64,000 nt of DNA from an uncultured Bacilli bacterium. GTDB taxonomy: Bacteria > Bacillota_I > Bacilli_A > RF39 > UBA660. The position numbers were made by a program, and so were the translations under genes. Under the pieces are notes generated by a model. It was given only the letters and a program-made list of their open reading frames with translations, had not been told where the DNA came from and did no database searches. Every line of letters begins with the position of its first letter. Position 1 is the first letter of the stretch. The stretch spans positions 1-64,000 of the forward strand of contig CALVUX010000009.1 of assembly GCA_944363715.1 (NCBI GenBank), written 5' to 3'. Positions 27,749 to 31,901 of this stretch are shown here, piece by piece.

Positions 27749-28042
27749 TTACATACCTATTAAATCAAAGTTAATAGAGTCTTCTTTAAGTAATTCAATA
27801 ATATTAGTATTAGAATGTTTTTCTATTCTTTCCTTTATAGAATTAACATCATCATAAAATAGATTAGGTTTATTTATTATAATATCTTTTATATTAGTAA
27901 GTCCTATTGATAAGAAGTAATCTATTATCGATGATACTCTTTCTTCATTTAACTCTAATTCTAGTTTATCCTCTTCATCTATAGTGTTAATAATATCATT
28001 AATATCTTCTGCAGTTAGATTATATTTAGTTAGATACTCCAT
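27749..28042 (-). CDS. Small helical protein, last gene of an unrecognised operon
   Basis: The 97-residue, entirely alpha-helical acidic protein contains a segment (YFLSIGLTNIKDIIINKPNL, then an ERI helix) resembling the helix-turn-helix-P-helix pattern of mTERF-type repeats. This similarity is by eye and weak. Its start overlaps the end of the 28030-29871 gene by 13 bp, so it belongs to that operon. It may be a detached repeat unit of the larger upstream protein, which ends in similar helical repeats. No catalytic motif is visible. Confidence 0.65.
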   Translation of the reverse strand: MEYLTKYNLTAEDINDIINTIDEEDKLELELNEERVSSIIDYFLSIGLTNIKDIIINKPNLFYDDVNSIKERIEKHSNTNIIELLKEDSINFDLIGM

Positions 28043-29871
28043 CCATACTCACCTCTTCCTTTTACTGATGTTTTAATTAAGTTAAATGTCTTTTCATCTA
28101 GGTACATACCTCTAGTAACTGAATATAAGAAAGCATTATCATCAGTAATACCTTTCTCTTTTAAAGCACTATAGCATCTTAAAACTTTTAATCTACAGAT
28201 AATCTCTTCACCTATTTTATATTGATATGGATTGTTATCAACACGATAATTTTCTTCTAAAGTCTTTATATTTTCATCTGTTAATATATCATCTTGATAA
28301 GTAATAGGATTTTCTTTTGTAATTATTTCTTCATACTTGCTCGCATTAGGAATATAAGTATCATTCATTTGATTTATAAAATTTTCTTGTTTGAATGCTT
28401 CTATTTCTTCAACTGTTCCAAGATTATATCCAAATTTTTTAGAGCATTTAGTAGTTAAACATCTATTTAACAATTGCCTATATCTTTGATATTGCGAAAA
28501 TATAATATTATAATAATCTTCTATACTATTTTCTCTTTTTAATTTATATAGTAGAGCAAAGTTTTCTTCTCTCATACAATTAATGACAGATGGATTACTA
28601 ACAGCATAATTAATATTAAAATTATGTAATAGACCTAGTTCTACTAATCTGTCACATTTATCTGCTACTTTGGAAAAAGAAAAAGCAGATGGTGGGAAAG
28701 AAGACATATCTCTGTTGAAGAAGCCATACGTTTTATAAGTTCGAACATTCTCTTCTATTTTTTCTCTAGGTGTTTGTAATACTTTAATATTAGTCTTATT
28801 AGAAATAGAGACATTAAGACCTAAACTTGTCAAGTATTCTTCATTAGATAGCATCTCTTCATAAGAAATCATATTAGCATAACCACGCAACCTATGGTTA
28901 TTACCACTTCCACCTCTATTGCCTGATGGAGATTTATGTCTCGCTCTTGCTTTTTTAGGTAAATTGTTTACCCATATACTAGGCATCTCAAAAAGTGCTG
29001 GAAATAGAGCTTTACGTTCTTTTAAATCTTTATAACGTTTGCTAATTGTACTCTCATTACTATATAAAACAATTGCTAGTAAAGCTCCTTTTGAGAATTT
29101 GTCTAATATTTTATTGTTTCCTAAAAAGGTTAATATATCTCGTGTATTACTTAAGTCTATATTTCTAGATATTTCTTCTTTATTTCTATCAATATATTTT
29201 AGCATATCTTCGCTAAGACCAAAGTTTCTAAAACACTCTTTAACTTCTTCTATATCAGTAGTTACTAATATCTTTTTATTTTGTTTTTTGATATTTTCGT
29301 TATATTCAATTACACTGCTTAATAAATCTATTTTTATTTTAGAAGAAGTATCTTTATCTTCAAGTATTATAGATAAAGTTTTAAAGTCTTCTAAATTTAA
29401 CAAGGAATAATCTTCTTTATCATTAACTTTTTCATATAAGTATTCTAAATTTAAAATAGCTTCTTCAATAAATGATACTTCTTCTTTAATTTTACTAACT
29501 TTTTCTGCTTCTTTTTTAACAGTTTCTACTAATGAGTCTTTCTTTTCCACTAACTCTTCTATTAGTTTTTTTACAACTTCAAGTTGAGTAGTAGTTAAAT
29601 CAACTGATAAGTTAGCTTCATACTTAGCTTTTAAAACAAGTTTTATATTATTTAAATCTTCTTCTTTTATAGAAACATAATTACTTATATCTTGATACTG
29701 TAAATCTTTTATATTTTTTATATCTTTACTTAGTATTTCAATTAAGTTTGTAAGTTTATTTATGTCTTCTTTTAAAGATTCAATTTTTTCCTTGTTATTT
29801 TCAAGATTAATATTATTGTAAGTTTCATACAAGTTATCACGTTTTGTTTTTATAATTTCTGCTAATGTCAT
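28030..29871 (-). CDS. Large coiled-coil protein with C-terminal helical repeats, unknown
   Basis: About 613 residues with no recognised family. Residues 1-150 form a long coiled coil. A central helical region leads to a strongly basic Gly/Ser/Arg/His linker (KKARARHKSPSGNRGGSGNN) near residue 320. The second half shows repeating helical units of roughly 38 residues with G and P at fixed places (KTYGFF ... FPPSAFSFSK, VELGLL ... SNPSVINCMR), reminiscent of mTERF or other helical-repeat nucleic-acid binders. The start at ATG 29871 fits AGGTGAT. The basic linker plus repeats suggest nucleic-acid binding, which is inference. Confidence 0.7.
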   Translation of the reverse strand: MTLAEIIKTKRDNLYETYNNINLENNKEKIESLKEDINKLTNLIEILSKDIKNIKDLQYQDISNYVSIKEEDLNNIKLVLKAKYEANLSVDLTTTQLEVVKKLIEELVEKKDSLVETVKKEAEKVSKIKEEVSFIEEAILNLEYLYEKVNDKEDYSLLNLEDFKTLSIILEDKDTSSKIKIDLLSSVIEYNENIKKQNKKILVTTDIEEVKECFRNFGLSEDMLKYIDRNKEEISRNIDLSNTRDILTFLGNNKILDKFSKGALLAIVLYSNESTISKRYKDLKERKALFPALFEMPSIWVNNLPKKARARHKSPSGNRGGSGNNHRLRGYANMISYEEMLSNEEYLTSLGLNVSISNKTNIKVLQTPREKIEENVRTYKTYGFFNRDMSSFPPSAFSFSKVADKCDRLVELGLLHNFNINYAVSNPSVINCMREENFALLYKLKRENSIEDYYNIIFSQYQRYRQLLNRCLTTKCSKKFGYNLGTVEEIEAFKQENFINQMNDTYIPNASKYEEIITKENPITYQDDILTDENIKTLEENYRVDNNPYQYKIGEEIICRLKVLRCYSALKEKGITDDNAFLYSVTRGMYLDEKTFNLIKTSVKGRGEYGWSI

Positions 29872-29879
29872 AATATCAC

Positions 29880-30080
29880 CTACCATTCCATTAATATTCG
29901 ATATGTTTCTAAATAAAAGGAGAAGTCTTTAATTCTAGTTTGAAAATTAGAGATAAATTCTCTAGAACTGATTCCTAAGGCAAAAGATATCTCTTCTAAA
30001 CTCACATCTTTTTCTCTAATTAGGTTCATGCAGTCATTTTTAATATTTAGAAATAAACTATCTAGTTTTTCATCTATCAT
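29880..30080 (-). CDS. 66-aa protein with a helix-turn-helix-like segment
   Basis: The small soluble protein has a central stretch (EKDVSLEEISFALGISSREF) that fits a helix-turn-helix with the usual small residue in the turn. This would make it a DNA-binding or adaptor subunit of the operon. It starts at the stop codon of the upstream coiled-coil gene and ends just before the start of the 613-residue protein, so all are translationally coupled. Too short for confident family assignment. Confidence 0.6.
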   Translation of the reverse strand: MIDEKLDSLFLNIKNDCMNLIREKDVSLEEISFALGISSREFISNFQTRIKDFSFYLETYRILMEW

Positions 30081-31477
30081 TATTTATGTTCATCTCCTTT
30101 TGTTTTTATTTGTTCTTTAAAATATTCTACAAATTCTTTTTGTGTTTCTAAGAAAGTAACATTATTATTTTTTATATTAGCTAAAGCCTCATCGATTAGA
30201 TAATCAAAGTTTAAAGCGATTGGTTCAGTATTATCAAATACTTCTTTAAAATCAGCGAAAGTTAGTATTAATACTTTATTATCTTTAGTTCTAATATAAG
30301 ATACACACATATTGGAACTTCTATTGATGTAGATATTATTTTTCTTATAGTTAGATTTAAATTTAGTATGTTTTTTACCTTTTTCATGATCATGAACACC
30401 TTTTTCAAACTTTTCTATAAGAGCTTGACACCGTTTTTTATCATCTTTACTAAATTTATCCATATCAAAGAAAGGACTATTACTTTCATCTAGTAGAAAA
30501 TATATTTCATTAGTTGTTTTTTCTTCTTCTATTTTTTCTTCTGTTAGAATGCTATCTAATGCTATAGCTTTATTATAATCTTCTTTAAGAATATTAAAGT
30601 AGTCACTTATGTCTTCTAAAGTAGTGTTAGGATTATCTAGTTGTAATTCTAACTCTTGTTTTGTTTCAAGCATATCTAATATTAATACTGTCATAGAAAT
30701 ATCTTTATATTGAAATTCATCAATACCAAGTGTAGAGAGGTTTAGATTATCTTGACTTTCTTGTGCTTTAATAGCTTTTGCCATTTCTCTATTGTAATTT
30801 ATATACTTTTCATCTTTACCATTTATTAAATAATAGTATTTACTTATAATACTCTCTATACTATCTTTAAGTTTAAGATATTCTTCTTTTAGTTTATTAA
30901 GTCCTTCTTTATTTACATTTACAGTTACTTCTTCAGGAAATAATGTCTCTATTTCTTTAGATTCTTTTTCTTTTTCTTTAATGATATTTTCTTCTTTTGT
31001 TGTAGCATTCTTACAACTTTCATAAGCAAGTTCTTTTAGAATACTTATTTTTTCTTCATCACTAATACTTGCTTTTAAAATAAAAGAAGCTTTAGCGGTA
31101 AGACTTTTTTCATCTAACTCTTTTATTTCTGACTCTAATTTTTTTACTTGAAGTTCATACTTTTCTTTATTATTAAGACAGTCTTTTACTCTCTCATCTG
31201 TTAATATATTATTTAGTGCAATTGTAACTTGCTCTAATTCTAAAGCATTGTTTTCCCAAAAGAAATTAATAATTTGCACGTTAGAAGTTAATTGGGGAAA
31301 TAAAAGAAGTAGTGTCTTTTGATTTTCTAATAAGTTTGATATATATTTTTGTATATCATCTTTAGGCATACTTAAAATTTCGGCACTTTTTATCATGGCT
31401 CTGTAATTATCAAGTTCTCTTTTTAGCTCTTGTAATTGTTCTTCTATTAATTGTTCATATTTTTCTTTTGGTTCCAT
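30080..31477 (-). CDS. 465-aa coiled-coil protein with compact C-terminal domain, unknown
   Basis: First gene of a four-gene overlapping operon. The first ~350 residues are Glu/Lys/Leu-rich and predicted helical or coiled coil (EQLIEEQLQELKRELDNYRA and similar). The last ~110 residues form a distinct mixed alpha/beta domain: a basic segment (EKGKKHTKFKSNYKK) followed by strands NIYINRS, MCVSYIRT and KVLILTF. That layout resembles small RelE/ParE-like or nucleic-acid-binding folds, but no motif proves it. The ribosome-binding site AAAGGAGGAT is strong. A terminator and a 34-codon ORF precede it. Confidence 0.7.
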   Translation of the reverse strand: MEPKEKYEQLIEEQLQELKRELDNYRAMIKSAEILSMPKDDIQKYISNLLENQKTLLLLFPQLTSNVQIINFFWENNALELEQVTIALNNILTDERVKDCLNNKEKYELQVKKLESEIKELDEKSLTAKASFILKASISDEEKISILKELAYESCKNATTKEENIIKEKEKESKEIETLFPEEVTVNVNKEGLNKLKEEYLKLKDSIESIISKYYYLINGKDEKYINYNREMAKAIKAQESQDNLNLSTLGIDEFQYKDISMTVLILDMLETKQELELQLDNPNTTLEDISDYFNILKEDYNKAIALDSILTEEKIEEEKTTNEIYFLLDESNSPFFDMDKFSKDDKKRCQALIEKFEKGVHDHEKGKKHTKFKSNYKKNNIYINRSSNMCVSYIRTKDNKVLILTFADFKEVFDNTEPIALNFDYLIDEALANIKNNNVTFLETQKEFVEYFKEQIKTKGDEHK

Positions 31478-31507
31478 ATATTTATCCTCCTTTATTTTAA
31501 CATTAAA

Positions 31508-31535
31508 AAGAACAGAATATATTTATCCTGTTCTT
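31508..31535 (-). terminator. Terminator between the 34-codon ORF and the coiled-coil operon
   Basis: An 8-bp perfect stem (AAGAACAG / CTGTTCTT, 12-nt loop) is followed by TTTAAT on the minus strand. The stop codon of the small ORF is in its loop, and the operon's first gene starts ~30 bp later. It can therefore control read-through into the operon. Confidence 0.8.
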
Positions 31536-31627
31536 AACTCACCATGAAAGAAAGTAATTTTATTATTACTTATGTTTTTATTAATACTACCCCCAAGGTA
31601 ATAAATTGTAAACGTATATTTTGTCAT
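31523..31627 (-). CDS. 34-residue small ORF upstream of the coiled-coil operon
   Basis: ATG at 31627 behind AAAGAAGG, with a strong promoter 31 bp upstream, encodes a 34-residue peptide starting MTKYTFTIYYLGG and ending in HGELRTG. Translation ends inside the loop of the intrinsic terminator at 31508-31535. This is the layout expected of a leader peptide that controls attenuation, or of a small independent peptide gene. It has no transmembrane segment or signal peptide. No run of a single regulatory codon is evident, which weakens classical amino-acid attenuation. Confidence 0.55.
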   Translation of the reverse strand: MTKYTFTIYYLGGSINKNISNNKITFFHGELRTG

Positions 31628-31657
31628 TTTATTACCTTCTTTCTTTTTACTATCTTA

Positions 31658-31686
31658 ATAATATCACAATATACTTAAACTTACAA
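31658..31686 (-). promoter_or_regulatory. Promoter of the small ORF and coiled-coil operon
   Basis: On the minus strand, TTGTAA (31681-31686) and TATTAT (31658-31663) have 17-bp spacing. Confidence 0.7.
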
Positions 31687-31745: not shown

Positions 31746-31901
31746 TTAAGATATCTTTAAACCATTTTCTACTTTACTATCTAGATTTAGTAAAACAACT
31801 CCTAGTACTAAAACTTCACTTGTTACTTCTGATATATGAATAGGCTTAAAGTTAACTACTGCTATTATTTGTTTTCCTATTAAATCTTCTAACGTTATCA
31901 T
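31746..31901 (-). pseudogene. csaA: Truncated csaA remnant (tRNA-binding domain C-terminus)
   Basis: A 51-codon ORF reads LIGKQIIAVVNFKPI followed by SEVLVLG and NGLKI, closely matching the C-terminal half of CsaA/MetRS-type tRNA-binding (OB-fold) domains (B. subtilis CsaA has LINKQVIAVVNF and SEVLVLG). The N-terminal ~55 residues are missing and the loop after SEVLVLG has lost several residues. The position of the missing half is taken by the terminator of the M23 gene. Most likely a decaying deletion remnant rather than a functional small protein. Confidence 0.75.

Follow-up and report, generated by a model that had tools for sequence, protein, structure and literature searches.

A patchily distributed operon of uncultured gut Bacilli pairs a predicted RelE/HigB-fold protein with mTERF-like repeat proteins

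Introduction

What might four overlapping genes of no recognised family, two of which appear to encode helical repeats, be doing in a gut bacterium? Such a cluster, whose genes we call A to D, occurs in the window considered here, the whole 64,000-nucleotide stretch of DNA that was analysed, which comes from a metagenome-assembled genome of 1.4 Mb and low GC content. A first-pass annotation had likened the repeats to those of mTERFs, which have been described as eukaryotic modular proteins (PMC7909791) with repeats placed in metazoans and plants (PMC7909791, PMC3471360); the literature that was searched contained no account of mTERF proteins from bacteria. The analysis presented here suggests that the operon is an undescribed RNA- or ribosome-targeting system.

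Results

The four genes are co-directional and each overlaps the next, by 1 nt between A and B, 7 nt between B and C and 13 nt between C and D (Table 1). The earlier claim of four overlapping genes with no recognised family is borne out by the ORF calls and by searches of Pfam and NCBIfam, which returned nothing usable for any of them, and of PADLOC, which assigned no family. The outer edge first given to the cluster, position 31627, has to be revised, as the start codon found there belongs to a 34-codon leader ORF and not to A. Measured against orthologues in other species of the genus, dN/dS reaches at most 0.42 (A, 0.25-0.37; B, 0-0.13; C, 0.18-0.25; D, 0.14-0.42), compared with 0.03-0.04 for uvrB; A to D are coding, constrained and fast-evolving, and are real genes under purifying selection.

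Table 1. Features of the operon and of the DNA just upstream of it, with positions in the window.
Feature	Position	Strand	Size or extent	Basis or remark
Genes A-B-C-D	27749-31477	-		co-directional, overlapping
Gene A	30080-31477	-	465 aa	ORF call
Predicted RelE/HigB-fold domain of A	30158-30520	-	residues about 320-440	
Gene B	29880-30080	-	66 aa	ORF call; HTH-like (plausible)
Gene C	28030-29886	-	618 aa from first ATG, 613 from next ATG	
Coiled coil of C	29422-29865	-	residues 8-155	AlphaFold2 secondary structure
mTERF-like helical-repeat region of C	28177-29271	-	residues about 206-570	VIA, hhalign
Gene D	27749-28042	-	97 aa	ORF call; regarded as one mTERF-like module (Pfam, profile, PDB matches)
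Leader element	31508-31660	-	about 160 bp	RBS, short ORF and hairpin upstream of A
Leader ORF	31523-31627	-	34 codons	contains G tract
Terminator-like hairpin	31508-31535	-		just before RBS of A
CsaA-type fragment	31746-31901		51 aa	upstream of the operon, not a member of it

Of the 35 genus genomes, 9 share the order A-B-C-D, which is also found across the GTDB family, where the proteins have diverged to about 20-30% identity. Profile searches recovered C from 19 of the 193 family genomes scanned for it and D from 177 of 385, representing 64 of 121 genera, and in a phylum-wide scan of 295 genomes solid matches again lay only within the same family. Beyond it, the matches in two genomes (G499 and G671) are weak, and one in a third (G657) falls by chance within a methyltransferase-like protein, leaving no convincing occurrence outside the family. 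The operon appears to be confined to one family of uncultured gut Bacilli, with D not convincingly present elsewhere.

Within the family, D keeps constant company. Each of the 78 distinct D loci has a same-strand upstream neighbour no more than 120 bp away, and at 69 of the 78 this neighbour, whose median length is near 600 aa, overlaps D or is separated from it by at most 4 bp. The loci fall into type I, with A-(B)-C-D, and type II, in which two genes that seem to share the role of C precede D and which often adjoin an ABC transporter operon; variants exist, some loci being without B and the type II loci without an A-type gene. At two loci D and the upstream protein are joined into a single chain with D at its end (L146:5368-6957, 529 aa; L127:7082-7705, 207 aa), and such fusions in some species support a physical link between C and D. 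From the recurrence of the order, the dN/dS values and the linkage of D to its neighbour, the four-gene arrangement is more than chance, and the operon is conserved but accessory and patchy.

In other species of the genus, the orthologues sit in the same order between csaA and uvrB, a gap that is a variable spot in the genus, occupied by other genes in some genomes and essentially empty in two (G022 and G010). In G003 and G020 (L163 and L162) this spot carries a Sir2-like gene (241 aa) and a 158-aa NTPase resembling Nhi/AbiO. In the window genome the csaA beside the operon appears truncated: the 51-aa ORF upstream of A is what remains of a CsaA-type tRNA-binding protein, the intact csaA product of relatives being 108 aa long. 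At L018 and L173 (G013 contig 8) the operon adjoins a 5' fragment of uvrB, 97 codons long, and a complete uvrB lies about 20 kb away in G013, behind a multi-gene island that is also present in G024 (L169); the fragment together with the distant full copy fits an integrative element that entered and replaced the 5' end of uvrB. Other genera carry the operon at different sites, but the site is shared within a subclade, and outside the genus it is often beside housekeeping genes (upstream of rpoB in L080 and L083, between ftsZ and rpsO in L085), not in islands.

The conserved 161-bp leader sequence upstream of A, which the first-pass annotation had not noticed, is a dispersed repeat, present in 32 of 35 genus genomes, with 13 copies in the window genome and up to 25 in others. 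The copies that were inspected (L222-L237) precede large membrane-anchored, surface-type proteins with an N-terminal membrane segment, which often carry the motif ITTGSITMTYEE..DNTISLNGALPTTD; the G tract in these copies is usually longer than in the leader of the operon, and the frame downstream of it varies from copy to copy. The element looks like a phase-variable attenuator, in which the length of the G tract would set whether ribosomes reach the hairpin and would thereby cause phase-variable read-through, and the operon may have come under its control in the window's genus only. RNA repeats of the type III toxin-antitoxin kind were also considered upstream of A and rejected, there being no tandem array and no Rfam match.

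The model of A, obtained with AlphaFold2 from a 19-sequence alignment (pLDDT 80, pTM 0.35), is confident for the individual domains and not for the packing between them. AlphaFold2, Foldseek and VIA together delimit a helical N-terminal half, a four-helix bundle (residues about 186-315) and a C-terminal RelE/HigB-like domain, which is built of a strand, a helix and four strands (E-H-EEEE, 324-409). The best Foldseek matches are the toxin of S. pneumoniae HigBA (probability 0.97-0.99) and P. horikoshii RelE (0.94); VIA-align gives Z scores of 9.0 with 6af4_C, 8.4 with ribosome-bound M. tuberculosis HigB1, 6.4 with Cami1 and 5.9 with 70S-bound RelE, and aligns many further chains of the RelE/HigB superfamily to residues 320-440. 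A divergent relative of A (L155) matches Pfam ParE_toxin in the corresponding domain (E 9.4e-4). A is predicted to end in a BECR-type RelE/HigB toxin fold, and this modelled fold, likewise unnoticed in the first-pass annotation, is the strongest clue to function. A search of A against PDB sequences gave chance matches only, and hhalign found no relation between A and the bacterial mTERF profile (P 0.9). A PADLOC match of A to Cas11a (E 9e-4), 50 residues long and lying across part of the RelE-fold strands, was set aside as chance.

The arginine at the position resembling R61 (xYRxxY; we take the numbering to be that of E. coli RelE) is replaced by Cys, Ala, Ser or Ile in the window's clade; it is kept in the deep branches L155, L085, L120, L089, L140 and L090, and L080 and L083 have Lys. 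The absence of the RelE-type arginine makes catalysis by A in the window's clade doubtful, and A may have a ParE-like or non-catalytic role.

B lies directly downstream of A and has a conserved tail, R..DFSFYL.TY.LL..W, in the family alignment. It is plausibly a small HTH-like protein, as had been proposed, although its matches to Pfam HTH families are all weak (RecQ-type E 0.0026, AraC-type 0.015, Cro/C1-type 0.043); comparison with HigA gave no significant match, and its profile matches in the PDB are to other molecules. By position B stands where HigA would, right after a HigB-like gene, and higBA has a toxin-first gene order (PMC11980606).

C was predicted from sequence to have an N-terminal coiled coil and C-terminal helical repeats, and both are seen in its AlphaFold2 model (pLDDT 85, pTM 0.70), in which an mTERF-like alpha-solenoid follows the coiled coil and the basic Gly/Arg/Ser linker is a low-confidence stretch (313-329); the protein ends in the signature Y.Y.IG..IISR.KVLR.YS.LK. 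VIA aligned the model to eight mTERF-family entries with Z scores of 6.0-8.3, values that are suggestive and middling; models of helical proteins often score below 8. The best is 6z1p_BY of the Tetrahymena mitoribosome (Z 8.3), which we take to be an mTERF-type protein; MTERF3 scores 7.4, MTERF1 7.1 and MTERF4 6.4. In hhalign, C matches the bacterial mTERF profile with a probability of 59% (P 9.3e-5; reversed, 0.84), and the type II C proteins match mTERF with P 1.7e-4 (reversed, 0.41). Pfam mTERF is absent among the 25 families listed for 27 C members, a search of C against PDB sequences gave chance matches only, and the top Foldseek matches are the superhelices of TALE and BurrH, with probabilities of at most 0.6 and E-values above 0.1.

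For D the case rests on sequence. Pfam mTERF (PF02536) is matched by 5 of 20 D relatives, with a best E-value of 8.5e-4 that falls short of the Pfam cut-off, and is the sole family matched by several of them; among PDB sequences MTERF3 is the second-best match of D (E 0.012). A search of family genomes with PF02536 yielded genuine mTERF-repeat proteins that pass the curated cut-off, in 9 of 117 genomes and in 0 of 14 controls. These proteins (L196:9567-13132, L197:7840-8953, L199, L201:225-1404, L202:74-979, L203), several of them in tandem, sit in bacterial contexts, for example beside spore, tyrS or proS genes. When the D profile was run on all ORFs of these loci, with reversed controls, it matched the mTERF-repeat proteins only (best E 7.3e-8) and none of the controls; hhalign of D with the mTERF profile gave 95.9% and P 5.6e-9, the reversed controls being at 0.02 or worse. 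An HMM of a single mTERF unit showed weak enrichment of C and D. We regard D as an mTERF-type module, the further repeat unit that it had been suspected to be, and C as probably mTERF-type, given its model, its profile match and the sequence of D. The proposal of mTERF-type repeats has therefore fared unevenly, standing for D by sequence and more weakly for C, where P is 9.3e-5 and Z 6.0-8.3.

Discussion

The reading that we favour, with a probability of roughly two in five, is that the products of this accessory operon of one family form a complex that targets RNA or ribosomes and that descends from a toxin-antitoxin-like module. The solenoid of C and D would recognise nucleic acid, perhaps invading or stress-related RNA, DNA or rRNA, in a complex assembled through the coiled coils of A and C, and recognition would free the RelE-fold domain of A to act on, or dock to, the ribosome or mRNA. 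B might restrain A and repress the operon, much as HigA acts on HigB. The variants without B and the type II loci without an A-type gene do not fit this A-D model as it stands. Counting against it, too, are the doubtful catalysis in the window's clade, the lack of a significant HigA match for B and the middling fold match of C.

What such a complex would be used for is a further question. A nucleic-acid-binding machine or a defence-type system, as first suggested, is possible. The patchy presence, the variable insertion spot and the fast divergence make defence against phages or mobile elements the likeliest use, and we put the chance that the operon serves defence at about one in three; conditional control of translation or ribosome assembly comes second, as the main rival to defence. 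Against defence, PADLOC found nothing convincing on the operon, and outside the genus the usual neighbours are often housekeeping genes instead of islands. The genes might also have proved to be phage structural or surface proteins, and no such match came up: neither the IMG/VR scan nor phage records held relatives, the best fold match in BFVD was poor (E 0.03, probability 0.30), and a phage or viral origin was rejected.

A targeting complex of this kind has to be weighed against a factor for the cell's own gene expression, which we judge the less probable of the two, and somewhat unlikely. C and D would then bind a site in rRNA or DNA, and A would be a non-catalytic module docking to the ribosome, the whole tuning translation, ribosome assembly or transcription termination as the mTERFs of organelles do. 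The structural neighbours of C do include mitoribosome-bound mTERFs (6z1p_BY; MTERF4 in 7o9k and 9hcg), and the absence of the RelE-type arginine from the window's clade, the conservation of the site inside genera, next to rpoB, ftsZ or rpsO in some, and the purifying selection on A to D all suit such a role. Against it, the operon is absent from about half of the family genomes and from three quarters of the genus, its genes diverge several-fold faster than uvrB, and it is typical of toxin-antitoxin modules for a RelE-fold protein to have an HTH partner next to it.

More improbable still is that the likeness of C to mTERFs reflects nothing beyond the common shape of alpha-solenoids, the operon being structural or of unknown mobile origin. 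The Foldseek E-values of C and the prominence of other superhelices among its top matches are what a generic helical scaffold would give, as are Z scores in a range common for helical models, but D matches mTERF specifically by sequence, with clean controls and independently of fold, C matches the same family unlike its reversed control, and no viral match was found. That A and B are a plain HigBA pair placed by chance before two unrelated genes is very improbable, for all the HigB-like fold of A and the toxin-first order, as A is 4-5 times longer than HigB and is missing the RelE-type arginine in the window's clade, B shows no significant match to HigA, and D always has a co-directional partner gene just upstream.

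A more far-reaching reading, which we hold to be doubtful, is a protein-guided immune complex aimed at RNA or ribosomes, in which the mTERF-like protein recognises nucleic acid and directs or triggers the RelE-fold effector. Were it true, the mTERF fold would be a bacterial module for nucleic-acid recognition and not only an invention of eukaryotic organelles. The mTERF unit is found here in bacteria in two settings, in plain repeat proteins that pass the Pfam cut-off and in a conserved RelE-fold operon, which bears on the origin of mTERFs. Recognition by helical repeats coupled to an effector with a toxin fold is a testable combination. It also gives a first lead on the function of a set of orphan genes carried by about half of the genomes in a large uncultured gut family.

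To our knowledge, no known system combines these parts. The mTERFs (MTERF1-4 of mitochondria and the plant mTERFs; PF02536) have helical units of the same kind, some 30-40 residues long and marked by Gly and Pro positions, D being related to them by sequence and C probably similar in fold; unlike known mTERFs, the proteins here are bacterial, encoded in an operon and below the Pfam cut-off, and C is fused to a coiled coil. TALE and BurrH, the top Foldseek matches of C, share with it a helical superhelix, which in them binds DNA, but the match is of low probability and C has neither RVD-type repeats nor sequence similarity to them. With HigBA and RelE-ParE modules the operon would share the RelE/HigB fold of A, the gene in the toxin position coming first, an HTH-like gene second and overlapping frames; it differs in the long helical N-terminus of A, the loss of the RelE-type arginine in the clade and the two additional mTERF-like genes. 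CoCoNuT systems, predicted to target RNA, likewise have an overlapping operon, coiled coils, helical repeats and an RNase-like subunit (PMC11090510), but no McrB GTPase or HEPN was found in the A-D operon. Multidomain RelE-fold operons are proposed defence loci (PMC11980606), and in ptuXYZ, ToxM (PMC11980606) and Cami1 the same RelE-fold domain lies at the C-terminus of a larger protein, ptuXYZ being, like A to D, a multi-gene operon (PMC11980606); in place of the ATPase, restriction enzyme, CARF or membrane part of those systems, A to D have an mTERF-like partner. Each part of the operon belongs to a known superfamily, and it is the mTERF-like partner of a RelE-fold operon that is unprecedented.
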